A model generated the notes under the pieces. The model was not told where the DNA came from. It ran no database searches and saw only the letters and a list, made by a program, of their open reading frames with translations. Below are positions 8,246 through 44,681 of a stretch of DNA of 44,782 bases, one piece after another (the stretch's first letter is position 1; each line of letters opens with the position of its first letter). The DNA is from an uncultured Lachnospiraceae bacterium (GTDB taxonomy: Bacteria > Bacillota > Clostridia > Lachnospirales > Lachnospiraceae). The stretch lies in the NCBI GenBank assembly GCA_902767015.1, contig CACXFV010000005.1:1-44782 (forward strand), written 5' to 3'. The position numbers were made by a program, and so were the translations under genes.

Positions 8246-8254
8246 ATTCCCATT

Positions 8255-16948: not shown

Positions 16949-16966
16949 GCAAGCCTCATCTCTGTT

Positions 16967-18211: not shown

Positions 18212-18241
18212 ACCAATCCTCACTCACTTATATGAATTTCA

Positions 18242-19627: not shown

Positions 19628-19722
19628 TTCTACCTCCTGCCTGTTTCTGATTGTATACTGATTACTGTTATTTTTTATTTCAATTTTTCCTGCATATTGT
19701 TTCATTCTTATACCCCGTGCAT

Positions 19723-19825: not shown

Positions 19826-19866
19826 GTATTTTTCACACTTTTACTTTGGATTTGCTCTTTCACTTC

Positions 19867-20835: not shown

Positions 20836-20870
20836 TTACTTATACCCCTAATCTAACATAATGTATTGTA

Positions 20871-22598: not shown

Positions 22599-22685
22599 TC
22601 CTGATATAATGTCCTTTTAATTCTTTTATACATATTGTATTTATCAGATAAACAAGTTATTCCAATTTTATGTTTTCTTTAGGAC

Positions 22686-25142
22686 TTATTCCTCCGCCTC
22701 TTCAGACGGATTACCGTTTGCCGGTTCGTTATCACCAAACGGCGGCTCATCAGGCTGGTAATTCTCATCATCACTCGGATAATATCCCTGTGGATTAGCC
22801 TGCGCGTTATCTCCTGCGCCTCCATCTTGTGTGCCGGTGGCTGTATTCTGTGTTCCATCCTCAGGATTTGCTGACTCTCCATTTTGCTGACTGCTATCCT
22901 GTGAATTGTCTTCCCCCTGATTCGGTGAAGCCGCACCCTGCCCATCGGTATTCTGTGATGCTTCATTTTGCGTATCACTCCCCTGTGAGCCGGCATTTTG
23001 TGAGCTACTGTCACTTCCGCCTTCTGTATCTACGGATTCTGTCGGGAAAATATTCCAATATGGAAGTGCCTCTGTCATAACTGCACTAAATAATCTGCAG
23101 GCATAAGCACTGCTTCCCCTATCCGGCACATCCGGTGCATCCACTATGGCATAGCAGACAAGCTGAGGATTCTCATACGGTGCAAAGCCAAGGAAGGACA
23201 GCAGATAACTTTTATCACTCTTATCGTGATGCTGCGCTGTTCCCGTCTTACCTCCCACTGTATAACCGGCCACTGCAGCTGTTTTACCCGTTCCTCCTAC
23301 AACTGTATTATACAATGCCTGTCTGAGAAAATCAGAGGTATCTTTAGTTACCGTCTGCTTGATTAACTGCTTATCATAGTTCTCTATGATACCGCCCTTT
23401 GCATTAAGCACCTGCCTGATGACATGTGGTTTATAATAATTCCCTCCATTAATCAGGGAAGAAAAACCCGCCACCATCTGTATGGCATTGACATTGAAAT
23501 TCTGCCCGAAGGAATTAGTCGCCAAATCCTGAAGTGTCATGGCATCCGGTGAAAATAACAAGCCCTCACAGCTTGCCTCTCCCGGCAGGTCAATACCGCT
23601 TCTCATTCCAAATCCGAAAATTGACTGGTACTTGCAAAAGATGTCTACACCCTCTAATCTTGAAATCTGCATCAGACTATCATTGCAAGAATTCATAATG
23701 GCCTGTTCCACATTCAATGTGCCGTGACCGGATCTCTTGTGACAATGTATCGTCATATCATACACTTCAAAACCATCACATAAAAATGTCATGTTTTTCG
23801 TAATCTTTCCATCCTCTAACGCGCCTGCGATGGTAAACGGCTTAATAGTAGAGCCTGCTTCAAAACTGTCGCTGACACAGAAGCTTCTCCACATCTGGTC
23901 ACAGGCATTTCTCCTCTCATCCGAAACGGTAATTCCCTTCACATTCGGATTTGCCTCTTTATTACTGATAATCGTATTCAACGCCTTTACATCATCCGAG
24001 GTAAGATGTATCAGTCTTTCATCCGTAACCTTTGTATTACTCGGATAATCTGTAAAAAGCTTCTCCACATCTTCTCTTGATACCTGTGTCAAAGAATTGG
24101 CAAGGGCATCTATGGTAGCATTTTTCGCCGTATCATCCTCGTCTTTATCGAATACCTTCGTATTAATCGTTACTTCAAATCCCATTTTATTCTGTTCTTC
24201 TTCTGAATAATAGGCAGAAATATCATTATAATTATTGAGGTCAAAAATGCTCTTGTCATCAGCCATGGCAAGTATCTCGCCGGTATTCGGATTCGCCAGT
24301 ATGACCGCCACTCTCTGGGGATGATACTCCGTCACCCATTGTTGGATATATTTCTCACATATTCTCTGAAGTCCTATATCTATCGTTGACACAAGGTTAT
24401 AACCATCTACTGCCTCCTTTACTACCTCCTCCATGGTATTATCAGCATTCACATAGCCGTATTTTCTACCATCTGTGCCATTTAGGTAATCATTATAATA
24501 CTGTTCAATTCCAATGACACCCACATTTCCGGCAGCGGTAAATCCAATGGTGGCACTGGCCAGTGAACTGTAAGGATACATTCTTTTGTACTCCTCCTCA
24601 AACCATACACCTTTGACATTAGGATGATTTTTACTGTCATTGATAATTTTATCCATCTCGGCAATCTGCTCATAGGTCAGCTTTTTCAAACGGTCATCCA
24701 CAATATATCTGCTGGTGGGTGCACTATTGATAATCGCTTTGATATCTTCTTTGTTCACCTGTTCAAAACACGCATCGAGGGCCTCGATAGTTGGTTCCAG
24801 ATAGTCTTCCTTACTGTTAATGATAAAGGCATCTATGACAACATTGTATACTTTTACGCTGGTAGCCAGTACATTTCCATTTCGATCCGTAATCTCTCCC
24901 CTCTTGTAAGGCAATGTTCTGCTAGAATAGGTCTGCTGTGACATGACAATCTGCTCATACTCCTTGCCATGTGTCTTTTCTATACGAAACAAAACACCTC
25001 CTAAACCAACCAAAGCTGCCATGATTACAACTACTAACCATGCCAGCTTTCCTTTCATTTTTCTTGTAAATATCTTTGTTTTGGAACCTTTATCGTTACT
25101 CCGCTTTCTCCGTTCTCTGTTATGCATGCTATTATTACTCAT
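22686..25142 (-). CDS. Class B penicillin-binding protein with internal duplication and acidic low-complexity tail
   Basis: An 818-residue transpeptidase. A basic cytosolic N-tail, a membrane helix (about 34-54), a pedestal domain (RGEITDRNGNVLATS), then the transpeptidase boxes STIK (431-434), SCN (485-487) and KTGT (632-635), all canonical. It is longer than usual for two reasons. A segment around residues 120-187 appears to recur at 345-412 (both contain a D-x-RL-x-x-LT stretch and PNVKG). And the last 110 residues form a Ser/Gln/Asn/Asp-rich low-complexity tail. The ATG at 25142 has GAGGAGG before it; an ATG at 25157 overlaps that site. It lies 18 bp after ftsL. It is the likely septal PBP by gene order (mraZ-rsmH-ftsL-ftsI). 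Confidence 0.9.
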   Translation of the reverse strand: MSNNSMHNRERRKRSNDKGSKTKIFTRKMKGKLAWLVVVIMAALVGLGGVLFRIEKTHGKEYEQIVMSQQTYSSRTLPYKRGEITDRNGNVLATSVKVYNVVIDAFIINSKEDYLEPTIEALDACFEQVNKEDIKAIINSAPTSRYIVDDRLKKLTYEQIAEMDKIINDSKNHPNVKGVWFEEEYKRMYPYSSLASATIGFTAAGNVGVIGIEQYYNDYLNGTDGRKYGYVNADNTMEEVVKEAVDGYNLVSTIDIGLQRICEKYIQQWVTEYHPQRVAVILANPNTGEILAMADDKSIFDLNNYNDISAYYSEEEQNKMGFEVTINTKVFDKDEDDTAKNATIDALANSLTQVSREDVEKLFTDYPSNTKVTDERLIHLTSDDVKALNTIISNKEANPNVKGITVSDERRNACDQMWRSFCVSDSFEAGSTIKPFTIAGALEDGKITKNMTFLCDGFEVYDMTIHCHKRSGHGTLNVEQAIMNSCNDSLMQISRLEGVDIFCKYQSIFGFGMRSGIDLPGEASCEGLLFSPDAMTLQDLATNSFGQNFNVNAIQMVAGFSSLINGGNYYKPHVIRQVLNAKGGIIENYDKQLIKQTVTKDTSDFLRQALYNTVVGGTGKTAAVAGYTVGGKTGTAQHHDKSDKSYLLSFLGFAPYENPQLVCYAIVDAPDVPDRGSSAYACRLFSAVMTEALPYWNIFPTESVDTEGGSDSSSQNAGSQGSDTQNEASQNTDGQGAASPNQGEDNSQDSSQQNGESANPEDGTQNTATGTQDGGAGDNAQANPQGYYPSDDENYQPDEPPFGDNEPANGNPSEEAEE

Positions 25143-25159
25143 TGCGTGCCTCCTCATGA

Positions 25160-30884: not shown

Positions 30885-31985
30885 CTATGCCAATACATGT
30901 TCTATGATCCGCTCTACTTCAAGCTGCTTCTCATAGAGCACACAGCCACCACTATGATCGTCCTTTAAGTAATCGCCCTCTCTCAGCATTTTGAATAATC
31001 GGGAACTCATTGCCTCACGCAAAGATGTGTCACGCACATTTACATCTGAGTAGGGAGAGAATGGACAGGGTTCCGCTCCACCATGGGAATTGATATGGAA
31101 GAATCCCCTTCCTGCCGCTATACACCCTCCGGAACTCTTTTCATCCCCCGGAAATGATACAAACACCATATCGCCATACGCCAAGCGGGCATAATCTATG
31201 TATTCTTTTAGTTGCTTCCGTTCATTATCTCCCGGAGCAAGCTCCCTGCTTTCACTTGTCACCGGTACAAATTCCACAAAAACTACCAGCTTACAACCTC
31301 TCTTCCTCAGAGCATCCATAAAACTCTCGGAGGTAACCTCTTTTATATTCTCCGTAGTGACAGTCACCGACACACCAAAGATCAGTTTCCTGTCATGCAG
31401 AGCATCCATAACTGAGAGCAGCTTGTCATATACACCTTCCCCGCGCCTGTGATCTGTTACATTTCTGTCTCCTTCAATGCTTAGCACCGGCACAAGGTTT
31501 CTTCTTTTGTCAAACAGATTCAGATATGACTCGCCAATAAATGTTCCATTGGTAAATACCGGAAACAGAATATTAGACTTCTTTCCGGCAGCCTCAATAA
31601 CATCGCGCCGAAGCAGGGGTTCTCCTCCTGCAAGCAGGATAAAGCTCACACCTATCTGATCTGCCTCATCAAAGATTGCCTTCCACTCATCTCCTGTAAG
31701 CTGAGCTTCCGGTTGCGCGTCTGTCGTAGCATGATTGCACCGGGAATAGCATCCGGCGCAGTGCAGATTGCAGGAAGAGGTAATACTTGCAATCAAGAAC
31801 GGTGGAATATGCTCGCCATTTTTATCCGCATTTGCTCTCTTTACAGAAGCTTTCCCGGAAGCCGCCGCAAATTTCAACATAAAGGCACTTTCCGCCGGAT
31901 CAGACAGCGTTGCTTTCAGCGCATCCGCTACAATCCGCTCAACCCCGGCTGTCATATATTTTCCTATATCAAAACCGTTCTGCAT
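30885..31985 (-). CDS. Radical SAM protein with SPASM-like C-terminus
   Basis: A 366-residue radical SAM enzyme. The 4Fe-4S/SAM motif is CNLHCAGC (Cys72, Cys76, Cys79), followed by FILLAGGEPLLR (GGEP, SAM amino group contact), FPVFTNGTFI and VLSIEGDRNVTDHRRG. The C-terminal Cys cluster (SGGCIAAG, AEPCPFSPYSD, GGCVLYEK) fits an auxiliary SPASM/twitch cluster. Such proteins activate or modify peptides or act in cofactor synthesis (MoaA/PqqE/AlbA relatives); no peptide substrate gene is visible beside it. The ATG has AGAAGGATAA before it. A 99-bp palindrome ends 28 bp upstream of the start, so its leader or promoter carries that element. Confidence 0.85.
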   Translation of the reverse strand: MQNGFDIGKYMTAGVERIVADALKATLSDPAESAFMLKFAAASGKASVKRANADKNGEHIPPFLIASITSSCNLHCAGCYSRCNHATTDAQPEAQLTGDEWKAIFDEADQIGVSFILLAGGEPLLRRDVIEAAGKKSNILFPVFTNGTFIGESYLNLFDKRRNLVPVLSIEGDRNVTDHRRGEGVYDKLLSVMDALHDRKLIFGVSVTVTTENIKEVTSESFMDALRKRGCKLVVFVEFVPVTSESRELAPGDNERKQLKEYIDYARLAYGDMVFVSFPGDEKSSGGCIAAGRGFFHINSHGGAEPCPFSPYSDVNVRDTSLREAMSSRLFKMLREGDYLKDDHSGGCVLYEKQLEVERIIEHVLA

Positions 31986-32013
31986 TATCTTATCCTTCTT
32001 TCTTCTTGAATAA

Positions 32014-32112
32014 GGAACTGTTCATTAATAACTTAATCAATTTTTCTGCTGAAATACCATAAGCGCAAGCATTTCAGCAGAAAAATTGTAAAGTTTAATT
32101 ATGAACAGTTCC
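32014..32112. repeat. 99-bp near-perfect palindrome (MITE-like)
   Basis: Left arm 32014-32055 and right arm 32071-32112, each 42 bases, with a 15-base loop. The outer 12 bases (GGAACTGTTCAT / ATGAACAGTTCC) and inner 18 bases (CAATTTTTCTGCTGAAAT and complement) match exactly; the 12 bases between them on each side are AT-rich and only partly matched. There is no coding capacity. It resembles a small non-autonomous transposable element or a large intergenic hairpin. Confidence 0.8.
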
Positions 32113-32836
32113 TAACGGAATCAGGTTGGAAATGAGACCATAGGTCGATGTCAGAAAAGCGAAAAACCGACTCCTTCTCCCATAGTATCATCAACACAAT
32201 TTGTCCTTTATTTTAATTTTTCACAATTTAATTTTATACAATCTATTATAGATTAAATTAATTGCCTTGTCAAGGGGCAACCAGAAATTTGTAAACCGTT
32301 CTGACATACAGCTATCATCATTTAAAATCTATAAAAATACTCTTTGCGAATTTCTGCTTCCATATTTATATTTCACGTTTTTTCTCTATCAGTTTTCCCT
32401 ATCCATATAGTGAATCTCATCGCCAATACGATGAGATCCTCAAAACCATTATACCACAAAAAATGTCAAATTTTTGACTTGTAAAAATAACACTCCCAAA
32501 TGTAAAAACAACCTATTAATTTTTTATACCCCAAAGATATTTTTCCTAATGATTTCGCCAGATTCATCCAAAATCGCAGTACATGGATTCCCTAGTGAAC
32601 ACAAAGCCCGTATCTCAGCAAATAAAATCTGCAGAAATACAGGCTTTACCTAACTTTTTTCAGATTAATTTCACCTTTAAGTCTAACGATTACCGGAAAC
32701 TAATCATTATCCCCGCAGAGAAACTTATTATCCCTGTGAAGGCTTGATTTCTAGAGCTTTTAATGGCGATTATTCCGCCTCTTATCACAATTATTTTATG
32801 TTTTCAAAAATTTAGGTATCATATGGGTATCACACA
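32113..32836. other. Gene-free AT-rich stretch, probable edge of mobile element
   Basis: 724 bp without a convincing gene on either strand. It contains a perfect hairpin ATCTCATCG/CGATGAGAT with a 6-base loop at 32414-32437, a second hairpin AAAGCC...GGCTTT with a mostly paired interior at 32603-32647 followed on the plus strand by TTTTTT, and long A/T runs. Composition shifts here from the mid-GC core to the AT-rich cargo on the right, so an attachment site or element end may lie inside; no duplicated site could be identified because the other end is off-window. Confidence 0.5.
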
Positions 32837-34750
32837 TTAAACCATTTTATCATAATAATAATTACGACCTTCTCTTTTTTCTATATTAATCAATTCCTTT
32901 TTCGCTAAAACTTTACTACACCAATTTGCAACCTTTTGATAGCTACATCCAACTGCATCACCAATTTCTGCAGCCGACATTGCCTCCTCTTTACTCAATG
33001 TTGCAATTATTCCTAAGATTTTCACCTCGACTTCTGTATAATTTCCATCTGAAATTGGTACATCTTTATGTATAATTTCTTCAAGTTTCTCGTCACACTC
33101 AAAACATCTTTTAACTTTTGCTTGAGCTACTTCCATTTCATCATATATCCTGTTACAAATTGGACATTTATAACTTTTTATCCTATCTTTTAAAAAATAA
33201 CAATCATATGCCTGAAAAACAGAATCATATATAAACCTTATAGCAGTAAATTCATCTTTTTGATCAGCATATATTATACTATTGTCATTGCATATATCAT
33301 AATCTATCGCATACAAGACATAGTTTCCACCATACTTCGATGCCCTACTATCCTCCAAACAATGTACCATAAAATTTTCACAAAATATGTTTAAATATTT
33401 TTTTCTAATTGGGTCTATCATAAAATGACTAGCTGGCCTATTTGAATTTTTTGCTTTCTCATCTAAAGCTCTTTTTAAAAGACTATTCCACATATCCATA
33501 TAAAAACCTGGAATAACCTTTTTTTGAACCGCTCCCTGAAATTGCTTAAAATATATTTTTCGCGTTTCTCGTACCCCAACATTAATATCACTTATTTGAA
33601 TAAATTTTTCGTTTCTGACTTCTGCCTGCGTTAATGCATTTTGTAAAATTAATCCGATAGTTCTAGGTACTCCCATTGCTTCTCTACTTATTCTAAGTAA
33701 AATTTCATTTTTATTACCTTTAAAAACGTCATTCATTTTTAGTCCATTTGCTAAACTATTTAAACGTTTTTGTATAAGTTCTTCTGTATATATTATTAAT
33801 TCTTTACTCGCTGCTACAATGCCTCCATATCTTTCCACAAAATCACTCAAATCTAAGTATATTGGATATATATCTCTTCCTATAATTATATCCTTACCAA
33901 AGTAAAATCTATCTGTTATTGTTCCAACTTTAAAAAATACATTATTTTTTGAACCTAGTAACTTTTTAAGTAAAGTTGAAAATTTTTCTTGTTCATCATC
34001 TGTTAGATCAGAAAACTCATCTACAAATATGTATATAGCATCCAAACCACTTTTCTGTCTTATTCTACCTAAACACCCTAAAAACTGCTGTACATTATAT
34101 CCTCTTATTTCATCCAATTCATAGCTTGAATTTTCTTCATCCACTGTACTTTCAGTACCTTTAACATTAACATCTTTTGTTGAAATTAATCCTTGCAGTT
34201 TTTCTGTTGTTGAGTTTTTATTTTCTTGTACTATATTTCTTTTCTCTACTTTAAGTAAAATTCCCTCTTTAATAGTCTCTGTAAAATCATCAAATTCTTC
34301 TAGTCTTGAAAAATCTTTTTTCCCTAATTTTAATCTTGTCTCATGAAAAATTGTTTCTAATTGATTTCTTATTTCCTCAACAATTTTTGAAATAAAGCTA
34401 TGTTCTAAATTTTTATAATCCTGCGAGAACATTTCCTTACATTGGCTCAAGTCTATATATATAGGTAAAACTCTTTTATTTTGTAATAAGTAACTTTCCT
34501 CTTTAATGATTGGAGAAATTGTTTTCATACATTCATAATACGCTCTCATTAATAATGTTGTTTTACCTGTACCTCGTCTACCATTTATAAAGCTATCTTG
34601 ATTTTGCAGTATTTTGGGCAGTAAATTAAAAAAATCTACATAATAATCATTTAAATTTTCTAATTGCTTAATATCAGATATTGAAATATAATCCGCACGT
34701 AATATTGATTGAAATGTATCCCTAACCGTTTGTATTTGATCTAATTGCAT
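32837..34750 (-). CDS. ORC/Cdc6-like P-loop ATPase with zinc ribbon and winged helix
   Basis: A 637-residue protein and last gene of the five-gene operon. Walker A is GRRGTGKT (57-64), and Walker B is IYIFVDEFSDL (about 239-249) with the D-E pair, as in AAA+/STAND ATPases of the ORC/Cdc6 type. A sensor-like region includes FFKVGTITDRF, and a conserved Arg-rich region reads REAMGVPRTIGLIL. A zinc ribbon, CPICNRIYDEMEVAQAKVKRCFECDE, is near residue 535-562, and a winged helix-turn-helix (EAMSAAEIGDAVGCSYQKVANW) fills the last 60 residues. It probably binds DNA and uses ATP for assembly or remodelling. It starts 39 bp after the GHKL gene, with GGAG before the ATG. I know of no named family member with a settled function. 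Confidence 0.8.
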   Translation of the reverse strand: MQLDQIQTVRDTFQSILRADYISISDIKQLENLNDYYVDFFNLLPKILQNQDSFINGRRGTGKTTLLMRAYYECMKTISPIIKEESYLLQNKRVLPIYIDLSQCKEMFSQDYKNLEHSFISKIVEEIRNQLETIFHETRLKLGKKDFSRLEEFDDFTETIKEGILLKVEKRNIVQENKNSTTEKLQGLISTKDVNVKGTESTVDEENSSYELDEIRGYNVQQFLGCLGRIRQKSGLDAIYIFVDEFSDLTDDEQEKFSTLLKKLLGSKNNVFFKVGTITDRFYFGKDIIIGRDIYPIYLDLSDFVERYGGIVAASKELIIYTEELIQKRLNSLANGLKMNDVFKGNKNEILLRISREAMGVPRTIGLILQNALTQAEVRNEKFIQISDINVGVRETRKIYFKQFQGAVQKKVIPGFYMDMWNSLLKRALDEKAKNSNRPASHFMIDPIRKKYLNIFCENFMVHCLEDSRASKYGGNYVLYAIDYDICNDNSIIYADQKDEFTAIRFIYDSVFQAYDCYFLKDRIKSYKCPICNRIYDEMEVAQAKVKRCFECDEKLEEIIHKDVPISDGNYTEVEVKILGIIATLSKEEAMSAAEIGDAVGCSYQKVANWCSKVLAKKELINIEKREGRNYYYDKMV

Positions 34751-34789
34751 CTTTCATACTCCTTTTTTCGTTTCTGTATTTTTATATAA

Positions 34790-36787
34790 CTATACACCCA
34801 ATTTATCAAACAAAATTCTATTTCTTTTTTCTGCATCATTTAATATTTTATCAAATGACAGTATCTCTATATAAGAGTGGCTTTTTTCATGATACTTATA
34901 TAATCCCATCTTATCTGGTGTTTCTTTAAAATCATTTCTAAACGCAACCTTTTTTAGAGAAGGAGTTATATCGCAAACTGCATACAAATAAAACTGCGTA
35001 TTCTCACCTACCCTAATTATTCTCCCATTCTTATCTGAAACTTTATTTGAAGACAACTTTTCAACATACTCAAGCATTTGATCCACAGGATTCTCCGCAT
35101 ATGTATAATCATCTCTCATAGGTCTCTTTAACTCTAAAATAACAATTGTTTCATATTCTTTACCAGAATTATCTTCATCCGAAACCGCAACTGGACTATC
35201 AAGTATCATAACATCAGTTCTTTCTTCTTTAGGATTATTATCGAATGGTATATCTGAAGATATATACTCACTATACGAAAGTCTTTCGTCTATTAACCAT
35301 AAATTATGTGAAGAATATTCTATTTCATCTGATGTTCTGCGCATTGGATATATAAGATTATGGATATATGCCTCTTTATTAAATTTTCCATCTTCTTTAA
35401 TATTAATTCCTTTTTTCAGCAATTCTAATACAACTTTTCTATGTGCAACATATTCTGCTAATGCTGCCATATTAGCCTCACTTATTTTTTGAAATTGAGT
35501 TTCAAATTTATCTTTATACTCTGCTAAATTTTCAGTTCCAACATCTATTTTTTCTAAAATTTCTTTATTAGCTTTTTTTAGTTCAGTATCAAACTTCCTT
35601 TTTATCTTATATAATTCTTCATCTAACTTATTATCAGTTAAGCCCGGTTTTATTTTATTTATTGATTCCGGCATATATTTTAATAAATGTCTAAATTGCG
35701 GTGCATTATTATGTATATACTTTCTAATATGCTCATCTTTATTTTTATGGACCTCATCCAAATATTCAGACAAATATTTTTCCACTTCTGATTTGGCTGC
35801 AAGCACAATATCTTCCATTGAAACTTCTTCATCTTCCTTATTTTCTGAAATATCAAACGACGTTCTATTCATATCAACATTGTCATCCAAAAATTTTCCT
35901 GATAAAATACCAACATAATAATATCCCTTATCTTCAAATATATTTTTATCTAAATCTACAATTTCTTTATTTAAATCTATATCTTTTACCATTCTATCAT
36001 TCGCAAATAAAAACAATTTGCTTCCACCAACTAATATATCATGTACCTGAGTATGTAATATTTCAAATTTTTCTCCATTTACATCAATATTAGCACTCTC
36101 ACGTTCTCGATATATCTTCTTTTCAAACATACTATTGATACTGTATCGTTCCTCGTCTATTACACATATCTGAGGACATTTTGGAGACATTAAATAAATC
36201 ATACAATGTTGCATTATCTTCATAGCTATTGTTTCTGCATTCTTATTCACATGTTTGCGATATGTTGGCAAATAATCAATAAGCGACACACAAGTTCTAT
36301 TTTCAAATGCACCTTTTTCTTCAACAAGTCTATCATCAATATCTGATTTATCTAAAGAAAACTCAAATTCTCTTTTTACCCATACTCCATCATTTTCGTC
36401 CTTATATACGCTTTCAATATGCGTTTTTGAAAATGCTTTTAACCATGAAAATCTGCCTACGCCCTTACCACCTTTATCTGCTCGATATGTAGAATCAGAT
36501 TGCAAAAAAGATTTCATATTATTATCGTCTAATCCAACGCCATTATCAATAATCCTAAAACCTGTTATTTCATTTATACTTTTATCAATTCCTTCTATTT
36601 CTGCTACTTGTTGAGGATCTCTAATTATTTCTACTTCAATTTTTCCATCAAATTCTTCTTTTTGCTGTCTCTCTTGTATAGCATATATAGAATTTACAAT
36701 AGCTTCATATATTGGTATCAATGGCTGATTTTTGGGCAAATCAAAATTTCTTACTCTTCCTGCTAAATCAATTGTGAATCCTGCCAT
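34790..36787 (-). CDS. GHKL (Hsp90-like) ATPase with C-terminal PD-(D/E)XK-like domain
   Basis: A 665-residue protein. The N-terminal GHKL fold has an N-box (YEAIVNSIYAI, about 24-34), G1 box DNGVGLDD (about 76-83) and G2 box GGKGVGRFSWLKAF (about 105-118), as in MutL/Hsp90/MORC ATPases. A transducer-like segment and a long helical region (about 330-470, Lys/Glu-rich) follow. The last 170 residues read NLWLIDERLSYSEY, then RTDVMIL (Asp525), IVILELKRP (Glu552-x-Lys554) and PVDQMLEYVEKL (Gln570), the D...ExK...Q order of a PD-(D/E)XK nuclease resembling DUF4263/Shedu-type domains. An ATP-gated clamp coupled to a nuclease is the inferred role. The start ATG has AAGGAA before it. Confidence 0.8.
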   Translation of the reverse strand: MAGFTIDLAGRVRNFDLPKNQPLIPIYEAIVNSIYAIQERQQKEEFDGKIEVEIIRDPQQVAEIEGIDKSINEITGFRIIDNGVGLDDNNMKSFLQSDSTYRADKGGKGVGRFSWLKAFSKTHIESVYKDENDGVWVKREFEFSLDKSDIDDRLVEEKGAFENRTCVSLIDYLPTYRKHVNKNAETIAMKIMQHCMIYLMSPKCPQICVIDEERYSINSMFEKKIYRERESANIDVNGEKFEILHTQVHDILVGGSKLFLFANDRMVKDIDLNKEIVDLDKNIFEDKGYYYVGILSGKFLDDNVDMNRTSFDISENKEDEEVSMEDIVLAAKSEVEKYLSEYLDEVHKNKDEHIRKYIHNNAPQFRHLLKYMPESINKIKPGLTDNKLDEELYKIKRKFDTELKKANKEILEKIDVGTENLAEYKDKFETQFQKISEANMAALAEYVAHRKVVLELLKKGINIKEDGKFNKEAYIHNLIYPMRRTSDEIEYSSHNLWLIDERLSYSEYISSDIPFDNNPKEERTDVMILDSPVAVSDEDNSGKEYETIVILELKRPMRDDYTYAENPVDQMLEYVEKLSSNKVSDKNGRIIRVGENTQFYLYAVCDITPSLKKVAFRNDFKETPDKMGLYKYHEKSHSYIEILSFDKILNDAEKRNRILFDKLGV

Positions 36788-36828
36788 AATATTCCTTCTT
36801 TCCTTAAGACAAATTAATATAGCTTACA

Positions 36829-38454
36829 TTAACTTCTCTTCAATCTTCTTTTCTGCAACTTTTTCCAAATAGTTCTTGCATCTTTACACAATGCTTCTTC
36901 AATTCCAATACTATTAATTAAGATTTCCTTATCGACAATATCCAATGCATTTTCTATCAGTTTATCCTCTCTTACAATCCGATCTACCTTTCTAAGAACC
37001 TGCCTTACAATTTCAATAGGTATATCATCTAGTATAGGCACTAATATATTTCCTACTTCTCCCGGAAGAATTTCTAGTACGCCTCCGCCATAACTTCTGC
37101 CACACAATTCCGTGAAAGCAAAAGATATACTATTATAATATGACAATAAAATTCTTTCTGGCTCAACACCATCATTAAATTTGATTCTATGCATTGTATC
37201 CGTTGATACAGCATTGCAACAATTCAACACAAACTTAGGATAAAGATTATTTCTTCTTAGAAAAAACGCATCTGGCACCCATACAGATGGAATTCTATAC
37301 CACCTCTCTCTAATAGAACACTTATACCCTTCATTCTCTCCATTTACTTCTCCCAAATGAATGTATTCCTTGTGCTTATCTGGGTACCTCTCATACTCAA
37401 TTTCTGGAAAATCAATCAAGTACGCAGCCTTACCAGCATCAACATTTTCTTTCCAATCTTCTTCATTAAAATAAACACTATGTGCATGTGCACTTCTACC
37501 TATTAATGGACGAACAACCTTCTCTAATTCATATTGTTTAACAGTTTTATCATTAATTGAAAAATACTTATTGTTTCCAGTTGTTATTCCGACATTTATC
37601 AATGCTGTATCTGATAACATCTGAAAACGATTATCTTTACGAATCTTTGATATCAATTCATTTTCTTTGTTATTTGTGAAATATTTTGTCCACTTCTCAT
37701 GTACATGCTGTAGTTTCTGAAATCCATTTGTATCAATATCAAAATCATTCAGGTCATCTAAATTATTTAATTCTATAATTCTAATGCCTTTCTCTTCTGC
37801 CCCTTTTTCCCCAATAAAAACAACTATTTCTTGCTCTATATCTGGAAATACTAATTCTTCAAAAGTTATAAGCGTAATCTTCGATAAATGATTTGCCAAA
37901 AATAATCTTAAATCTTCAGCGTATGCAACCTGCAAAATTTCTGCCGGAATTACAAATGCTATTTTTCCATTATCTGAAAGAAGATTTACACAAGCCACCA
38001 TAAATCCAACCCAAGTATTTACAAGCTTATTAGATTTCATCCCCTGCGATACCAAAATTTCTGACATAAGTATTCTTTGATTTTCTTCAAGATACTGATA
38101 TCTTATATATGGCGGATTTCCTAGGATTAAATCAAATTTCTTTTCACATGTTTTTTCATAATAATCAAAGAAATCTCGATTAATTATCTTTATATTTTTA
38201 GCATTGGCAAATCTATGTTTTAACTTTTCTACCTCGTCTTGCTCAATCTCAATTGCTGTAGCATCATTAAGTTGATCCAGCATTTTCATATCGTCAAGAA
38301 CATCTATAAACACACCATCTCCACAGCTAGGTTCTAAAACTGTTTTTATTGATTCATCACTTGAAAACAATTTCACCATCATCTCTGCAAGCGGTAATGG
38401 TGTATAATATGCTCCTCTTAATTTCTGAGCAGAACTATTTTCTTTTAGCTTCAT
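36829..38454 (-). CDS. N6-adenine DNA methyltransferase (TaqI/Eco57I class)
   Basis: A 541-residue SAM-dependent methylase. Motif X/entry: RGAYYTPLPLAEMMVKLF (14-31). Motif I: VLEPSCGDGVFID (about 40-52). Motif IV: ILGNPPYIRYQYL (NPPY near residue 115), the catalytic motif of N6-adenine methylases of the gamma class. The C-terminal half (about 255-540) carries a target-recognition-type region with SYGGGVLEILPGEV, as in TaqI-like C-terminal specificity domains. It starts nine bases after the nuclease-methylase stop, so translation may be coupled. It probably methylates the same or the complementary strand site as its neighbour, protecting self DNA. Confidence 0.88.
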   Translation of the reverse strand: MKLKENSSAQKLRGAYYTPLPLAEMMVKLFSSDESIKTVLEPSCGDGVFIDVLDDMKMLDQLNDATAIEIEQDEVEKLKHRFANAKNIKIINRDFFDYYEKTCEKKFDLILGNPPYIRYQYLEENQRILMSEILVSQGMKSNKLVNTWVGFMVACVNLLSDNGKIAFVIPAEILQVAYAEDLRLFLANHLSKITLITFEELVFPDIEQEIVVFIGEKGAEEKGIRIIELNNLDDLNDFDIDTNGFQKLQHVHEKWTKYFTNNKENELISKIRKDNRFQMLSDTALINVGITTGNNKYFSINDKTVKQYELEKVVRPLIGRSAHAHSVYFNEEDWKENVDAGKAAYLIDFPEIEYERYPDKHKEYIHLGEVNGENEGYKCSIRERWYRIPSVWVPDAFFLRRNNLYPKFVLNCCNAVSTDTMHRIKFNDGVEPERILLSYYNSISFAFTELCGRSYGGGVLEILPGEVGNILVPILDDIPIEIVRQVLRKVDRIVREDKLIENALDIVDKEILINSIGIEEALCKDARTIWKKLQKRRLKRS

Positions 38455-38463
38455 CTAATCACC

Positions 38464-41463
38464 TTATATTTCCTGTCGATATACTTTGCCTATCAAGCCT
38501 TGTATCTCAACGATTATTCTGTTCTTTTCTTTTTCTAATACTTTAACAGATGCCTTATCAGGGCGTTTTATCATTTGCTCATTTAAAGCATATATTTTTC
38601 TTGTCTTAAGTACCACATCATCATATAGCTTTTTTTGTTTCGCATCTGAAAAATTTAATTTGATAAATGGTAACTTCTTAAGCAAAAATGTTCCTCGGGC
38701 GGTAAATCCATTTTCAAAATCGCTTCCTTGCATTTGAAAATATTTTTCTGTATATGGATGTGCTAACCATGCCTGGATGTACTCCAAATCATACTCTTTA
38801 TCTTCAAGTTCGCTAATAGCACAATATCCTGCTGTTCCTCCAGATGCAATTAACATATTGTCTTTGTCATATGCATACATTGGTTCTTTACTTAATATTC
38901 TAACAATCAGTTTAGGTGTATTAATAAATGCTGTTAATGCCTGAGTTCTTCCATATTTGTACCATGTCTCTGTTGTTGCATCTGGAACATCTCTACCCAC
39001 TCCATTATTCAAACATCTTGGGACTAGTCTGTCATAGCAATCCAGTAAATACTTCAATGCTCCTGGATACTTTTTCCTCATAGTGTCCATATCAATTAAT
39101 TTTCCTTTTGCATCATATGGAAAAATAATTTTTTTATCAGTCGATAGTACAGAATAAGTATTCATTCCCTTTTCACTTGCTTTTGTCGGCTTAAAATAAG
39201 GCTTCAAGATATCCTTTTCAATACTGTAATGTTCTCCGAATCTTTCAATATTAATACATTTTTCATCTTCCGATTCTATGCAAGAATAATCGAACCAGTA
39301 TACTTCCTTTTTATCCGAGAACTTTTCAGGTCTTTCTGCACTTGTCTGAATACCATTAAATATATTAACTACCTTAGAAAGAGGCACCGCCTTGTCACGA
39401 ATATCACTTATAAGCTGCATAAAGTTCGTATCAGTCGTAAGACTCCATGGATTTTTCGTCAAATCCGTATTTTTGACTTCTACACTTTTTACATTATATC
39501 CAGTCCACAAATCTGTTACAGATTTAACATATGAGTACTTTACATTTGAATTAGTTGTTTTTACAACAGTAACAATTGCACTATAAATTGTCTTATCTGG
39601 AAATAGCTGTGTATCTCCAAAATCTACAATTTCAGATATGTTTCCACAAATAAGATTTCTTAGTTCTTGTCCCGATGCAATTTTATAAAACTTATTTGGG
39701 ATTATGTAGCACAATACCCCCGAATCTTTCAGCAGTTCAAATGCTTGCTCTACGAACAAATAATACTTATCAAATTGTTTATATGCTGTTTTGTATTTAT
39801 TCTTATATATTGAAAATTCAGCTTCCCCTGACAACACATTCATATCTTCTGTCTTTACATAAGGCGGATTTCCAAGAATCGCATCAAATTTTCCACCATT
39901 ATTAATACTGTTCCAATCAAATGGCGACATCTTTACCAATTCATCAACTGATAATTCAATATTTTCAACATCTTTATCAGATATAAGAGAATTCCCTGAT
40001 AAAATATTTTCGTCAAGATTTGGCAAAATAGGTTCTACCTCTTTAACCGATGGCTCTGTCTCATTCTCCAATAACTTAAGCATCAAAGAAAATTTGCTAA
40101 CTTCTACTGCATGGATATCAATATCAAGACCATAAATACACTTCTTTAAAATCTCGCGCTTATCAACAATTGGCAGTTTTTTCTTACCATTTTCCATTTC
40201 AAGAAGATAATCAGGATTATTTTCCAAATACCACTTTTCACAGTAATCAATAATAAACTGGTATGCCTCTTCTAAAAAGACACCTGAACCACACGCAATA
40301 TCTGCTATTCTTAGATCAACAATATCTTTTGGACTCTTTCCTTTACATATTGGATCTAAGGTATTTTTTACCATATATTTAACAATTTCAACTGGAGTAC
40401 TGACAACAGATCTATTTTTATATTCATTTTTCTTAGCTAATAAAATCTCTCCGCCAGATATTGTTAAACTTTCAGCCAAAAATGATTCATATATTTTTCC
40501 TAAAACACTTGGTTCTATTATGTTAAATAAGTATGGTGTCTTAGGATAATATAACATTTCAATCATATCAAATATAACATCTGCGCTTAGGTCGAATATA
40601 GGATTTTCTCCCTTAAAAAGGCCTGAATTATACTTTTTATCAGCTTCCCTGAATGTTTCTGTTAATATCCTCTGTAGTTCTGTTTTATCGCTTGTCATTT
40701 CATATAATTTCTTGTACAGCGGGAGTTTTCTATCTTCACATATACGTAAAAAAATAATCTGATTGATAAATTCCTGAACCACATCATTTAATACACGTTC
40801 ATCATGATACCTAACATTATTGGAATACAAATACCTTCCTATCTCTAGCCGCCACGAATTAATCTGCTCTAAAAAAATGTTATCAATCTTTGTATGATAT
40901 TTTTCACTTTCTTGAAAATTCTCAGCTACAAAATTATCATATGCTCCACTATAGACACTTTCTTTAGAAACGAGTGCATTAATCTCATCAAATTTTTTAG
41001 CATATTCTTCAAAATAATATTTTCGATACAAAGCTGTTCTTGCATCATCCCCAGGTGCTGGTTTTATTGTTGTATCATATATCAGCATATCTTCGAAATT
41101 TGTCAGTATCACCATAGCATGATTTGCATTCCAACCATATTTTCTTGCCTGAATAGCAGGTTCTGTTTCCACAACTATATCCACACTCGGTTTTTTGGCT
41201 TCTACAAATAATTTAGATACTCCATTCAATGTTAATGTATAATCTGGTCTTTCAGAACAATTAGAAAATCTTTCCACAACTACCTCTTTGTACTGAGGTA
41301 ACTTTCCTTGTACATTTTGTACATCCCACCCAAAGCACTCCAACAATGGATTTATATATTCATCTCTACATTCGGTTTCATTATAGGCATTTTTCGTATC
41401 GTGATAATATTTCATATTTTCACGATATTTCTTTAACAAATCCTTCAATCTATCTAAATCCAT
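38464..41463 (-). CDS. Type IIG-like restriction-modification enzyme (nuclease + methylase + specificity)
   Basis: A 999-residue single-chain enzyme. N-terminal nuclease: YINPLLECFGWDV, ERPDYTL (Asp74) and FVEAKKP (Glu88-x-Lys90), the PD-(D/E)XK pattern of HsdR-N-type domains. A helical connector (about 180-330) leads to the methylase: motif X ..KNRSVVSTPVEIVKYMV, motif I IADIACGSGVFLEEAY (about 385), motif IV ILGNPPYVK (about 530). The C-terminal 400 residues hold a TaqI-like specificity region (ASGGTAGYCAISEL, GSDFENGFTARGTFLLKKLPF). It should cut unmethylated and methylate its own site. The recognition sequence cannot be read. GGAGGA precedes the ATG. It follows the small wHTH gene by 26 bp. 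Confidence 0.9.
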   Translation of the reverse strand: MDLDRLKDLLKKYRENMKYYHDTKNAYNETECRDEYINPLLECFGWDVQNVQGKLPQYKEVVVERFSNCSERPDYTLTLNGVSKLFVEAKKPSVDIVVETEPAIQARKYGWNANHAMVILTNFEDMLIYDTTIKPAPGDDARTALYRKYYFEEYAKKFDEINALVSKESVYSGAYDNFVAENFQESEKYHTKIDNIFLEQINSWRLEIGRYLYSNNVRYHDERVLNDVVQEFINQIIFLRICEDRKLPLYKKLYEMTSDKTELQRILTETFREADKKYNSGLFKGENPIFDLSADVIFDMIEMLYYPKTPYLFNIIEPSVLGKIYESFLAESLTISGGEILLAKKNEYKNRSVVSTPVEIVKYMVKNTLDPICKGKSPKDIVDLRIADIACGSGVFLEEAYQFIIDYCEKWYLENNPDYLLEMENGKKKLPIVDKREILKKCIYGLDIDIHAVEVSKFSLMLKLLENETEPSVKEVEPILPNLDENILSGNSLISDKDVENIELSVDELVKMSPFDWNSINNGGKFDAILGNPPYVKTEDMNVLSGEAEFSIYKNKYKTAYKQFDKYYLFVEQAFELLKDSGVLCYIIPNKFYKIASGQELRNLICGNISEIVDFGDTQLFPDKTIYSAIVTVVKTTNSNVKYSYVKSVTDLWTGYNVKSVEVKNTDLTKNPWSLTTDTNFMQLISDIRDKAVPLSKVVNIFNGIQTSAERPEKFSDKKEVYWFDYSCIESEDEKCINIERFGEHYSIEKDILKPYFKPTKASEKGMNTYSVLSTDKKIIFPYDAKGKLIDMDTMRKKYPGALKYLLDCYDRLVPRCLNNGVGRDVPDATTETWYKYGRTQALTAFINTPKLIVRILSKEPMYAYDKDNMLIASGGTAGYCAISELEDKEYDLEYIQAWLAHPYTEKYFQMQGSDFENGFTARGTFLLKKLPFIKLNFSDAKQKKLYDDVVLKTRKIYALNEQMIKRPDKASVKVLEKEKNRIIVEIQGLIGKVYRQEI

Positions 41464-41489
41464 ATTGTCCTCCTGTTTTTACTAACTCG

Positions 41490-41753
41490 TCAATCAGATA
41501 ATTTTTCTATGGTTTTTATTATACTCTCCGCGGTGTCCGTTAAAACGTACTTGCCCCGTGTTTTTTGTTCGACAAAACCTTCTTTTTGAAGCACACCAAA
41601 CATGCTATTAACTTTCATCTTACTATAATTTAATGTCGCTGCTATCTGTTGCTGTGTCAAAGGTATCACCTTTTCATCTAATATAATAGCTTCATTATCA
41701 TGCATTAATTTAAGCAAATCATAATAATCATTCAATAATAATTTAATACCCAT
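41490..41753 (-). CDS. Winged helix-turn-helix regulator, first gene of the defence-like operon
   Basis: An 87-residue protein, basic and helical, with LTQQQIAATLNYSKMKVNSMFGVLQKEGFVEQKTRGKYVLTDTAESII: a helix-turn-helix followed by the wing (MarR/IclR-like fold). It probably controls the downstream restriction genes, as small C-proteins do in many restriction-modification systems, although it is a winged helix and not the usual Cro-like type. GGAG precedes the ATG (AGGAGACCAGTTAA). A -10 TATAAT sits about 45 bp upstream. Ligand and operator are unknown. Confidence 0.75.
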   Translation of the reverse strand: MGIKLLLNDYYDLLKLMHDNEAIILDEKVIPLTQQQIAATLNYSKMKVNSMFGVLQKEGFVEQKTRGKYVLTDTAESIIKTIEKLSD

Positions 41754-41795
41754 TTAACTGGTCTCCTGTACTTTCAAACTCTAAGTAATGCATTA

Positions 41796-41824
41796 ATTAT
41801 ATCACACATATTTAGATTTTAAAA
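41796..41824 (-). promoter_or_regulatory. Candidate promoter of the five-gene operon
   Basis: Minus strand: -10 TATAAT (41801-41796), 17-bp spacer and a weak -35 TTTTAA (41824-41819). It lies between the MobV relaxase stop and the wHTH start, so the operon can be expressed independently of the mobilization genes. Confidence 0.55.
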
Positions 41825-41846
41825 TATTATTTTTTTGTTATCTGTT

Positions 41847-43064
41847 TCACTTATTTTTATTCTTACTAATCACCTTCCCAGTGCTCTCCAGAAACCTCTC
41901 CAGTAGATTAACCCCATCAATTACAAACTGCTTCATAAACTCATACGCCTTTTCCAGCAGTTCCTTTAATGTCGTATTTTCCTCTCTAAGCTTCTGGTTC
42001 TCATACATTACATCAATAAGCTTCTCCCTGACATCATCAGTTCCACCCTGACGAAACATATCATATACACTCTCCGCAATCTTTGTCCTCTCAATCAGTT
42101 CACTTTCCTTAGAAGAAAGAAGTTCCAGATTATTCTTTTTATCCGTAATCATATCCGCATATTTTGCATATTCCGTTTCTGCTGCATTAATATTGCTTCT
42201 GACAGTCTCCAGTCTATCCTCATCGGCAGCTATAACATCCAGATTTCTGCTATGGCATTGTTCCTGTGTAGCAATCTGATATGATATGATTGCGTTATTG
42301 CTTCTCAGTTTAGTATTTTTCTTCTGCTCTTCATTGTTCTGCTGTTTTATATCAGCAAGCTTCCTACTCTCCTGTGCTACCTTATATTCTGTCACAGACA
42401 AGTCATGGTTACGACCCTTTTTCTTCTCTGCCAGCTGTTCCTTGAAATAACATTCAAAACCATAGCTTGCCTCTTCACGCAATTTATCCTGAAGAATCAC
42501 TGATAATGTTTGTGGTGTAAACACATTTCTTTTTGATACTTTCTTGGATAAGCCACGCTTTGCTCCTTCCCATACCGGAACGCCTACTACATGCATATGC
42601 GGACTGGCTTCATCAAAGTGTATGACTGCATTTGCAATCTTGAACTCCGGCAGTAGCTTTTGCAGGCAGTCAAGAATATAATCAAATACCTCAGACATAT
42701 AATCTTTATTTTTCCAATGTTCTTCCCAGTATTTCTTGTTCCCGCATTGAAAGATAATCTCAACTGCCATATCCTGATTAAGACCTGCAACATGTTCAAA
42801 GTAATCCTTTATCTTTCTGTCTTCTCTTTTCTGTCTGCTGTTATATTCCTTTACCGCATCATCAAATTCTCTGTGATATACCTGCTTAACATCCTGAAAC
42901 AAATCTGTTGTTCCATATATCAGCCTGATGTTATCTGAGCTGTAATCTGCCGATTTATATTTACGCAGGTTATGCTTTGCGACTCCTGCAAGTGCTTTTT
43001 TACTTGTTATCGCACTCTTGCCATTGCTTATATGAGCAGAGTATGATACATTTCCCATAGGCAT
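41847..43064 (-). CDS. MobV-family relaxase (Pre/Mob)
   Basis: A 405-residue relaxase that nicks oriT for mobilization by a helper conjugation system. N-terminal: NVSYSAHISNGKS and HNLRKYKSADYSSDNI. The metal-binding HUH-type signature is IHFDEASPHMHVVGVPV (about residue 150-165). The C-terminal 200 residues are a Glu/Lys-rich coiled coil. Catalytic residue in MobV proteins is a His or Tyr in the N-terminal part; H41 in AGVAKHNLRKYK is the best candidate. I chose the ATG at 43064, with AGAAAGGA before it; the frame is open to 43112. It lies downstream of a two-hairpin candidate oriT. Confidence 0.92.
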   Translation of the reverse strand: MPMGNVSYSAHISNGKSAITSKKALAGVAKHNLRKYKSADYSSDNIRLIYGTTDLFQDVKQVYHREFDDAVKEYNSRQKREDRKIKDYFEHVAGLNQDMAVEIIFQCGNKKYWEEHWKNKDYMSEVFDYILDCLQKLLPEFKIANAVIHFDEASPHMHVVGVPVWEGAKRGLSKKVSKRNVFTPQTLSVILQDKLREEASYGFECYFKEQLAEKKKGRNHDLSVTEYKVAQESRKLADIKQQNNEEQKKNTKLRSNNAIISYQIATQEQCHSRNLDVIAADEDRLETVRSNINAAETEYAKYADMITDKKNNLELLSSKESELIERTKIAESVYDMFRQGGTDDVREKLIDVMYENQKLREENTTLKELLEKAYEFMKQFVIDGVNLLERFLESTGKVISKNKNK

Positions 43065-43104
43065 TTGTCCTTTCTTATTCGTATTTTTCTGTCGGAGCAG
43101 TGCG

Positions 43105-43174
43105 GTTATCATCTTGGCTCTGCCATAGATGATAACCCCCTAGCAGTTTCGTCATGCTGACAAAACTGCGGGGG
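43105..43174. other. Candidate oriT: two adjacent hairpins upstream of the relaxase
   Basis: GTTATCATC (43105-43113) pairs with GATGATAAC (43128-43136). Next to it, CCCCCTAGCAGTTTCGTC (43136-43153) pairs with GACAAAACTGCGGGGG (43159-43174), one mismatch and one bulge, loop ATGCT. An oriT normally lies just in front of mobV, and this pair of hairpins is the obvious candidate. The exact nick site cannot be named. Confidence 0.65.
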
Positions 43175-43208
43175 CTCTCCGAGGGTTTTTGCATCAGCCT
43201 TTTAAACC

Positions 43209-43580
43209 TCATCTGCACTTAAACACAATCTCATTTATCACAATTTCTTCTGCCATCGCTCTTGCCTGATTCCGCAAATACAGCTGCTCCATAAATGTTT
43301 TCTTTTTACCCGTCATATGCTTTTTCAACCATGCTGCTTCAATATTGTCCAATCGCTCATATGCTTCTTCATTTACTGCTTCTGCCTGCTTTCTAAGCTG
43401 TCCCATTCGTGCCATATGACGATACTCAGAAGGTTTATTTTCTTTCATATACCTAAGCCACATCCGACCATATTTCCCTATATCCGTAAGATTGTATTCT
43501 GCTTCATCTACAGATAAAAGAGGATATAAAATCCCATCCACTTCTTTATATTCAACATCTAATTCTTCAAATAATGTCAT
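43209..43580 (-). CDS. TnpV-like transposon-encoded protein
   Basis: A 123-residue protein resembling TnpV of Tn4451-type mobilizable transposons. It has YNLTDIGKYGRMWLRYMKENKPSEYRHMARMGQLRKQAEAVNEEAYERLDNIE, a helical, charged core. The function of TnpV is unknown; it is not needed for excision in some elements, as far as I recall. The ATG at 43580 has AAAGGA before it. It lies between the RepA-like ATPase and the relaxase, the usual place in Clostridia mobilizable elements. Confidence 0.85.
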   Translation of the reverse strand: MTLFEELDVEYKEVDGILYPLLSVDEAEYNLTDIGKYGRMWLRYMKENKPSEYRHMARMGQLRKQAEAVNEEAYERLDNIEAAWLKKHMTGKKKTFMEQLYLRNQARAMAEEIVINEIVFKCR

Positions 43581-43693: not shown

Positions 43694-44659
43694 TTATGCT
43701 CTCAAATTCCAGTACCAGTTATTATTGCAACGCTCAGCCTTTATCTTTATTTCCTTCTTTGCTGTCTCAAGTGTTCTTTTCGATATTCCTTCCTGTGCTG
43801 CAAGTTCTATAATCTCTGTACTTAAAATTTTCTGTGTTCTTTCTGCCTGTTCTCTTAAAAATTGCTTTGCCATCTCAAGTTTACTTGCCTTTGGCACCAT
43901 ACCGCCCAGTACTTCATCAGCAGTAATTTCATAATCACCTAACCAATGAAATCCGTCCTCTGCCAATTCAAATGCTTTTGGATGACCAAATGCTGCAAGA
44001 TTATTCTTTATCTGTATCATTGCCCTGAGATTACTCTGCCCTTCTATTCTGCCAACAAGCATTACACTCCTTGCCACAGCAAAGAAATCAATGGAACCCA
44101 TTCCCCTGTAAGCAGCCTTTGCTCCTGAGCCTTTATTCATATGACCGATAAGAACAATGGCACAGCCTGTTCTTTCAGCAATACCTCCAAGCTTCTTCGT
44201 CATTTCTCTGGCTTCATTTGCCCGGTTCATATCAGTATCACCGCCAAGATAAGCCTGTATCGGATCAAATATGCACAATTTCGCATTTTCTCTTTTTATG
44301 GCTTCCTCTATCCTGTCATCCGTCATACTAACACTCCTATCAGACTCATCTATGATTGATATTCTGCTACAGTCTGCATTTGCTGCTTCAAGTCTTGGCT
44401 TGACTGTATCTGCAAGTCCGTCTTCTGCTGTTTGATATATTACATTTACAGGCTCAGTAATATTCATATTTTCATCTATACATTCTCCCCTTGATAGCTT
44501 TGCCGCAATATTTAGTATCAGCGTAGATTTCCCATCACCGGGGTCTCCCTGCACTATTGACAGCTTTCCATAAGGGATAAATGGATACCACAGCCATTTA
44601 ATCTGCTGTGATTCAACCTCAGAGAGGTGTATCATTTTTAATTCTGTATTTGTTTCCAC
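43694..44659 (-). CDS. RepA-like hexameric helicase-type AAA ATPase
   Basis: A 321-residue RecA-fold ATPase of the RepA/AAA_25 type. Walker A is GDPGDGKST, and Walker B is LCIFDPIQAY; IGHMNKGSGAKAAYRGMGSIDFFAVARSVMLV is the sensor/arginine region. The C-terminal part (RTLETAKKEIKIKAERCNNNWYWNLRA) has a winged helix look, for DNA binding. Such proteins, fixed in plasmids and mobilizable elements, support replication of the excised form. The GTG at 44659 has GAGG six bases before it; another GTG at 44671 is possible. The upstream part of the element lies off the right edge. Confidence 0.88.
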   Translation of the reverse strand: METNTELKMIHLSEVESQQIKWLWYPFIPYGKLSIVQGDPGDGKSTLILNIAAKLSRGECIDENMNITEPVNVIYQTAEDGLADTVKPRLEAANADCSRISIIDESDRSVSMTDDRIEEAIKRENAKLCIFDPIQAYLGGDTDMNRANEAREMTKKLGGIAERTGCAIVLIGHMNKGSGAKAAYRGMGSIDFFAVARSVMLVGRIEGQSNLRAMIQIKNNLAAFGHPKAFELAEDGFHWLGDYEITADEVLGGMVPKASKLEMAKQFLREQAERTQKILSTEIIELAAQEGISKRTLETAKKEIKIKAERCNNNWYWNLRA

Positions 44660-44681
44660 TGTCTGCCTCACTCGTAAATAA

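Follow-up and report, generated by a model that had tools for sequence, protein, structure and literature searches.

Five co-directional genes from an uncultured Lachnospiraceae bacterium are probably a composite of defence modules carried by an integrative mobilizable element

Contig CACXFV010000005.1 (NCBI GenBank assembly GCA_902767015.1) of an uncultured Lachnospiraceae bacterium carries, at positions 32837 to 41753, a run of five genes that starts with a restriction–modification (R-M) block and ends with two ATPase genes; the window analysed here is the whole 44,782-nucleotide stretch in which this run lies. The original prediction was that the five genes form a single multi-step restriction system that senses, loads and degrades DNA, a proposal that the counts of neighbouring genes do not support. 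We consider it quite probable instead that the locus is a composite of defence modules carried as cargo by an integrative mobilizable element (IME) and not one machine: it looks like an ordinary R-M pair with a possible small regulator, joined on the mobile element by two defence-like genes that each travel on their own. Genes 1–4 are of known kinds and gene 5 is the unnamed part. That an apparent five-gene system resolves into modules in this way shows how such systems can be over-called. Gene content and protein families, read directly from the window, are as follows.

41490-41753, minus strand: gene 1, winged helix-turn-helix (wHTH) protein, 87 aa
38464-41463, minus strand: gene 2, Eco57I-type type IIG enzyme, 999 aa
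36829-38454, minus strand: gene 3, companion methylase, 541 aa
34790-36787, minus strand: gene 4, GHKL ATPase-nuclease, 665 aa
32837-34750, minus strand: gene 5, ORC/CDC6-like ATPase, 637 aa

The neighbourhoods of relatives carry the argument. Gene 2 relatives at E ≤ 1e-50 occur in 12/299 genomes of the family, the bacterium's own included; surroundings were taken from 10 of the 11 other genomes (G130, in which the gene is in two pieces, was left out), from 3 of 246 plasmid records matching gene 2 (L016, L017, L019) and from one viral contig (L117). For gene 4, 58 loci were collected: 18 of 60 plasmid and phage records (L002-L009, L071-L080), four genome loci (L020-L023) and 36 viral loci, the last tested for the window's own genes only. 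The scan of viral contigs for gene 4 gave none with the single sequence and 36 with alignment A1; L002, which has no annotation, was read by translations of its open reading frames (ORFs) only. Searches with tblastn found no gene 4 or gene 5 relative in any of the 14 IIG loci (0/14), no gene 5 or wHTH relative and no Eco57I-type pair in the GHKL loci (0/58), and none of the other four genes beside the relatives of gene 5 (0/8, with L030 extending only 0.7 kb downstream). Weak methylase-domain matches appear in L074 (to gene 3, 21% identity) and L098 (to genes 2 and 3, 25-26%). Repeated co-occurrence of the five genes, which had been expected of a single system, is thereby not seen: none of the other loci examined was found to combine an ATPase with the R-M pair or to contain both ATPases. 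The reverse result, homologues of the ATPases apart from the restriction genes, had been named beforehand as one that would speak against the single system, and it is the result that these loci give. Independence of the modules is thus a direct reading of the examined loci.

The genes upstream of gene 1 were likewise read directly and are of mobile-element type.

41847..43112, minus strand: Mob_Pre/MobV-like relaxase (Pfam Mob_Pre 3.4e-18; NCBIfam MobV 8.3e-12, 45.6 bits, below the cut-off of 100)
43209..43580, minus strand: TnpV-family protein (Pfam TnpV 2.5e-27)
43694..44671, minus strand: AAA_25 (RadA-like) ATPase (Pfam AAA_25 1e-29; 76% identity to the L046 copy)

Locus L046 (genome G099), from another genus, presents at 4179-12811 a natural cargo swap, where a mobile element of similar build carries a related R-M block and then a different cassette. 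The element there consists of an integrase, a NikA-like protein, AAA_25 (76%), TnpV (53%) and a relaxase (37% over 164 aa), and continues in the same order with a further small ORF, the wHTH gene (74% over 70 aa), the IIG gene (67%) and the methylase gene (75%). Behind the methylase, genes for the PADLOC candidates PDC-M46A (8.3e-135) and PDC-M46B (1e-192), an LmuA-like protein (1.3e-14) and a type IV enzyme (7.9e-201) replace genes 4 and 5. In G182 (L049), a genome of the same genus as the source of the window, the tail of a related relaxase gene (59% over 80 aa) stands ahead of an IIG-methylase pair. Of the eight family loci whose downstream sequence exceeds 6 kb, four have a gene with a PADLOC match at E ≤ 1e-8 behind the methylase and on its strand, namely L046, L048 (PDC-S47), L055 (PDC-S46, 1.1e-209) and L047 (weak); the gene next to the methylase is without a PADLOC match in L050 and L051 and lies on the opposite strand in L052 and L054. 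The conserved part of this mobile cargo slot is the R-M pair, and the same-strand genes that follow it are exchangeable.

The five ORFs form one co-directional run, as originally described, with gaps of 26, 9, 41 and 39 bp from gene 1 to gene 5, and every one of them lies on the minus strand. All begin with ATG, the motifs of the four large proteins are intact, and a purine-rich, Shine-Dalgarno-like stretch, read by eye, precedes every gene. A scan of 32000-43200 placed none of its six terminator-like sites on the minus strand (0/6), so that a single transcript for genes 1–5 is plausible; promoter-like matches in the same scan were at chance level (58 found, 63.0 expected). The region ahead of gene 1 nevertheless offers a possible transcript start, a candidate identified by consensus match alone.

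41754..41846, minus strand: region 5′ of gene 1, with the promoter-like site TTTAAA-16-TATAAT with TG at 41823-41796

The shortness of the gaps points to a single promoter serving the five genes, whose co-transcription we infer. Rfam gave nothing at gathering threshold. GC content at third codon positions (GC3) is 38.6 in the relaxase gene and then 29.5 (wHTH), 24.3 (IIG), 23.2 (methylase), 18.2 (GHKL) and 17.1 (ORC), a fall along the run that fits a history in which the R-M block and genes 4–5 arrived separately.

The first module, which we call module A, comprises the wHTH protein, the Eco57I-type IIG enzyme and its companion methylase. Gene 2 encodes one protein of about 1000 aa in which a nuclease, an adenine methylase and a specificity region are combined: it matches PADLOC REase_MTase_IIG over residues 4-988 (1e-255) and Pfam Eco57I (7.8e-38) and HSDR_N (1.6e-8), and contains the motifs RPDYT (72-76), FVEAKK (86-91) and GNPPY (531-535). 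The C-terminal specificity region is assigned on the basis of the full-length model match, TaqI_C giving 15 bits, below its cut-off. Beside it, gene 3 encodes a companion N6-adenine methylase of the M.Eco57I type (PADLOC MTase_II 4.3e-179, residues 1-540; Pfam M_Eco57I_C 4.6e-37; GNPPY at 112-116). By these matches, genes 2 and 3 form an R-M pair of the Eco57I type. It had been noted at the outset that a type IIG enzyme usually acts alone or with one methylase. A methylase gene adjoins the IIG gene in 14/14 loci (10 family genomes, 3 plasmids and 1 viral contig, with the order or strand of the pair differing in L016, L017 and L019), so two methylase domains with one nuclease are the ordinary make-up of this kind. 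Eco57I itself, of 997 aa, has a separate methylase, and the arrangement of genes 2 and 3, a type IIG enzyme accompanied by a single methylase of its own, is that of the Eco57I type (PMC3874165); the clostridial Cac824II, of 993 aa and specific for CTGAAG, has its methylase gene directly downstream in Clostridium acetobutylicum (PMC4736252), as at this locus. The proteins described for Eco57I, AcuI and Cac824II share with gene 2 the nuclease-methylase-specificity layout and the separate adenine methylase. What differs here is the small wHTH gene ahead of the pair and the two unrelated same-direction genes behind it; site specificity is known for Eco57I and Cac824II. Gene 1 (Pfam HTH_Crp_2 1.4e-7) has a relative in 1/14 IIG loci, the gene preceding the IIG gene in L046, and from its position it may regulate the R-M block locally.

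By analogy with Eco57I, which recognizes CTGAAG and whose methylase reads CTNNAG, we propose that the companion methylase would mark both strands of an asymmetric site in the host's DNA and that the IIG enzyme would methylate one strand and cut unmodified DNA at a distance. Restriction of DNA without the system's methyl marks is established for the family, and is what module A is expected to do.

Module B, gene 4, is predicted to be a paraMORC3-type GHKL ATPase with a C-terminal PD-(D/E)XK-like nuclease, in the architecture of VcSduA. It has GHKL ATP-binding motifs together with a MORC-like S5 domain, as paraMORC3 proteins do: Pfam HATPase_c_3 is matched at 2.2e-4 (21.7 bits, below the cut-off of 25), and E28/N32, DNGVG (81-85), GGKGVG (106-111) and ILELKRP (550-556) are present. 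In the nuclease-like tail called from the letters alone, E472, D525, E552 and K554 (E-D-ExK) are invariant across 31 aligned proteins, and the helix-strand order would fit such a domain. A fold look-up gave, among the matches listed, none beyond residue 381 and no Shedu structure, and a viral fold library returned Hsp90-, topoisomerase- and RIIA-like rows for the ATPase part only. PADLOC SduA matches 1/12 aligned gene 4 relatives (E 0.027), an hhalign comparison with an annotated Shedu protein gave a weak alignment (probability 1.7%), and a PDB sequence search had no match up to E 1 for gene 4 or gene 5.

PMC2292703 describes paraMORC3 and also gives precedents for GHKL proteins in R-M operons, and VcSduA has been published as a GHKL-nuclease, Shedu type I-D, that constitutes an independent single-protein anti-phage system in which E27A and K557A abolish protection (PMC12137116). 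Compared with that published description, gene 4 shares the N-terminal GHKL ATPase with MORC-like module and the C-terminal E-D-ExK residues, and its E28 and K554 can be set beside E27 and K557, the spacing being 526 residues in gene 4 and 530 in VcSduA. Unlike VcSduA, gene 4 sits behind an R-M pair and carries no DUF4263 recognizable by hidden Markov model (HMM). On the VcSduA analogy, module B would be an ATP-driven clamp, presumably dimeric, that controls the C-terminal nuclease on invading DNA, and it should act by itself.

Relatives of gene 4 occupy varied surroundings. In two Vibrionaceae plasmids (L003, 1824-12031; L005, 3173-12004) the GHKL-nuclease shares its run with type I R-M, in the form of HsdR, an SMC-like ATPase, a methylase and an S subunit; the ATPase in the L003 run was tested and is SMC-like, not ORC-like, and in L003 the GHKL gene is preceded by an additional gene annotated as Shedu. 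In L021 (5833-14505) a relative (49%) forms one run with an HKD/Snf2 helicase and a different type IIG enzyme (PADLOC 3.8e-232), possibly an operon type of its own, and in L023 (5131-11138) a relative is in a run with McrBC genes (McrC, Pfam 2.1e-39). Restriction genes are close by, in another run, in L004, L073, L074 and L077. Other copies are solitary or stand beside integrases, transposases or other defence genes (AbiE in L072; SIR2 and an ATPase in L074). One relative (50%) is a single gene on a viral contig directly behind a CHAP-domain lysin-like gene (L081, 6001-8016), and another (28%) lies about 6 kb from repABC on the Ti plasmid NC_002377 (L007, 10055-12085).

Module C is gene 5, an uncharacterized ORC/CDC6-like family and, judged from its sequence and distribution, a candidate stand-alone defence gene. 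Its P-loop ATPase region, residues 31-348, matches PF24389 (ORC-CDC6-like) at 1.7e-12 (47.3 bits against a cut-off of 27; profile positions 14-318 of 571), and the relative in L027 reaches 36.9 bits. Walker A (GRRGTGKTT, 57-65), Walker B (IYIFVDEFSDL, 239-249), CPIC (529-532) and CFEC (549-552) are in place; five aligned proteins agree without exception in the key Walker residues and in three of the four ribbon cysteines. The zinc ribbon first proposed stands insofar as gene 5 has CxxC...CxxC, but the fourth cysteine is aspartate in three aligned Bacteroidota relatives, and we therefore speak of a zinc-ribbon-like motif. An AlphaFold2 model from five sequences is poor (mean predicted local distance difference test score, pLDDT, 48.6), with a better C-terminal stretch from about residue 571 (block means 61-86). 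PADLOC matches are to mad8 (5e-6) and mad1 (0.039), and the full-length family has weak matches only in PADLOC 2.0.0 and NCBIfam. It differs from PF24389 and MAD8 in being a full-length family with the zinc-ribbon-like motif and a predicted C-terminal winged helix. A literature search at the level of titles and abstract openings found no published description of this family or of the five-gene set. Against the original statement that no named system matches stands the VcSduA counterpart of gene 4; the domain calls and the defence character originally given hold.

At least five full-length relatives (49-60% identity) were found, in one Clostridiaceae bacterium and four Bacteroidota, a lower bound because the scan of the genome collection requires exact short peptide matches. 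Distant relatives (23-27%) occur in 1/298 other family genomes (L024), 1/390 other class genomes (L026) and one plasmid (L018); no relative, close or distant, was found in phage records or viral contigs. In L026 the distant relative is directly behind an rlmH-type SPOUT methyltransferase gene. All four close relatives measured are AT-richer than their loci (GC of 32.8 vs 52.5, 29.3 vs 36.2, 26.3 vs 34.7 and 31.8 vs 38.2%), so the relatives are probably mobile or laterally acquired. No MADS-, BREX- or Ssp-type genes were recognized beside gene 5 relatives at the eight loci. Solitary elsewhere, module C would most likely be a single-gene defence or DNA-surveillance ATPase; for the narrower claim of an ATP-dependent, DNA-sensing defence protein, which we infer from mobility, single occurrence, DNA-binding-type parts and defence cargo, we see the chances as about even. 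Full-length, apparently mobile and stand-alone in both Bacillota and Bacteroidota, the family offers a cheap candidate for a single-gene test.

Several findings weigh against a composite of independent defence modules. No defence gene was recognized, from ORF lists, among the neighbours of the five close gene 5 relatives, and DUF4263, the Shedu domain, was not found in gene 4 by HMM. Because less than 0.7 kb lies behind the methylase in 3/14 IIG loci (L049, L053, L117), the absences counted there are weak, as they are in the 17/58 GHKL loci that have less than 3 kb on one side. The nearly equal GC3 of genes 4 and 5 means that these two could have arrived together. Restriction genes share run and direction with the gene 4 relative in 4/22 plasmid, phage and genome loci, by annotation or ORF lists, which makes a partnership of gene 4 with restriction possible.

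A different role for gene 5, as a maintenance, replication or transposition helper on mobile DNA and not a defence gene, seems to us rather unlikely. ORC/CDC6-clade ATPases are described as serving replication and transposition (PMC10853773), the AT-richness just described marks the relatives as probably mobile, and the distant relative in L024 (23-26% identity) sits at the end of an IME-like element, near guaA (Pfam-confirmed) and with an integrase of the L046 type; an IS200-like transposase gene is about 5 kb from the relative in L028. No element is evident around the five close relatives, however, since no integrase or relaxase was recognized in their ORF lists, and in the window gene 5 belongs to the cargo, with the relaxase gene about 7 kb away.

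Cooperation between two of the modules, with the R-M pair cutting unmodified phage DNA, the resulting ends licensing the GHKL nuclease to degrade what remains and gene 5 either independent or a loading helper, we regard as distinctly unlikely. According to PMC12409362, the N-terminal domains of certain type I Shedu proteins detect free ends of DNA, which makes a relay from module A to module B attractive, and gene 4 relatives are found in a run with another IIG enzyme (L021), with type I R-M (L003, L005) and with McrBC (L023). Against this, VcSduA is described as independent (PMC12137116), the literature as covered holds no report of end sensing by GHKL-type members, and 18/22 loci have no restriction gene in the same run. 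The fuller form of the relay is a long shot: there, Eco57I-type cuts would give the ends that license the GHKL clamp-nuclease and the ORC-like ATPase would mark or hold foreign DNA, in a layered defence on one transcript. Under this same claim, gene 5 would belong to an as yet unnamed family of AAA+ immune ATPases that stand alone and use zinc-ribbon and winged-helix parts as sensors.

The integrated system first proposed, in which the ORC-like ATPase would load, the GHKL clamp sense or remodel, and the IIG enzyme and tail nuclease degrade, is very improbable. It draws on the tight co-directional run, with its gaps of 9-41 bp and no minus-strand terminator-like site inside, and on precedents in GHKL proteins of R-M operons (PMC2292703) and in the ORC-Cdc6 ATPases described for Ssp and BREX systems (PMC10853773; PMC12839542). 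Yet the sets of 14 IIG, 58 GHKL and 8 ORC-like loci hold no second locus of this kind, the R-M pair is found without the ATPases and either ATPase without its partners here, and the R-M block of L046 is followed by a different cassette. A reduced relative of MADS, with a MAD2-like methylase, a MAD8-like ATPase and a MAD1-like winged helix in the latter, is scarcely credible, and the scores contradict it: to the mad8 and mad1 matches of gene 5 can be added a mad2 match of gene 3 (4.4e-22) and weak NCBIfam MADS2 and MADS5 matches to gene 3, but these reach 38.6 bits against a cut-off of 720 and 16.3 bits against 400, gene 3 is far closer to MTase_II, and only mad1, mad2 and mad8 appear, weakly, in PADLOC, with no mad3-mad7 among the matches listed (the best 25 for genes 2 and 3).

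The composite cargo that we favour lies in the slot behind the relaxase. Relaxase matches at E ≤ 1e-20 are present in 44/299 family genomes, own included; at E < 1e-50 there are 14 other places, of which 13 were taken (G125, at a contig end, was left out). Three of these (L060, L061, L062) end directly behind the relaxase, and 8/10 of the remainder (L056, L057, L058, L059, L064, L065, L066, L067) have R-M or AbiE genes in the slot, the kinds being type I, II or IIG R-M, Vsr/C5 methylase and AbiE; this is a raw count over 10 loci without a null control. No R-M or AbiE gene was recognized behind the relaxase in L063 and L068, L063 having a helicase gene about 8 kb on with a weak PbeA match. Further systems might be sought in this position.

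The carrier resembles IMEs that target rpsI and guaA, both of which are described as IME targets in streptococci (PMC5357655). Its relatives have a tyrosine integrase, NikA/MobC-like protein, AAA_25 and relaxase, and some are beside rpsI or guaA; rpsI is a Pfam-confirmed neighbour in L057 and L048 and was read by eye beside L058, L059, L060, L065 and L068. This element differs in its defence cargo, and its own integrase, which such relatives lead us to expect, and its target site would lie outside the contig: there is no integrase in this contig end, which stops 111 bp past the AAA_25 gene. A search for the empty site in a same-genus genome gave two short matches only.

On the other side of the run, the left end of the element is probably between about 32.3 and 32.8 kb, as a guess. 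Beyond it, a Radical SAM protein is encoded at 30885-31985 (Pfam Radical_SAM 8.3e-12), and a perfect sigma-70-like promoter match at 32273-32245 goes with that gene. Further left, at 14764-25157 of the window, genes for FtsZ, an FtsW/RodA family protein, a Mur ligase and two penicillin-binding proteins make up an ordinary chromosomal cell-division and cell-wall cluster.

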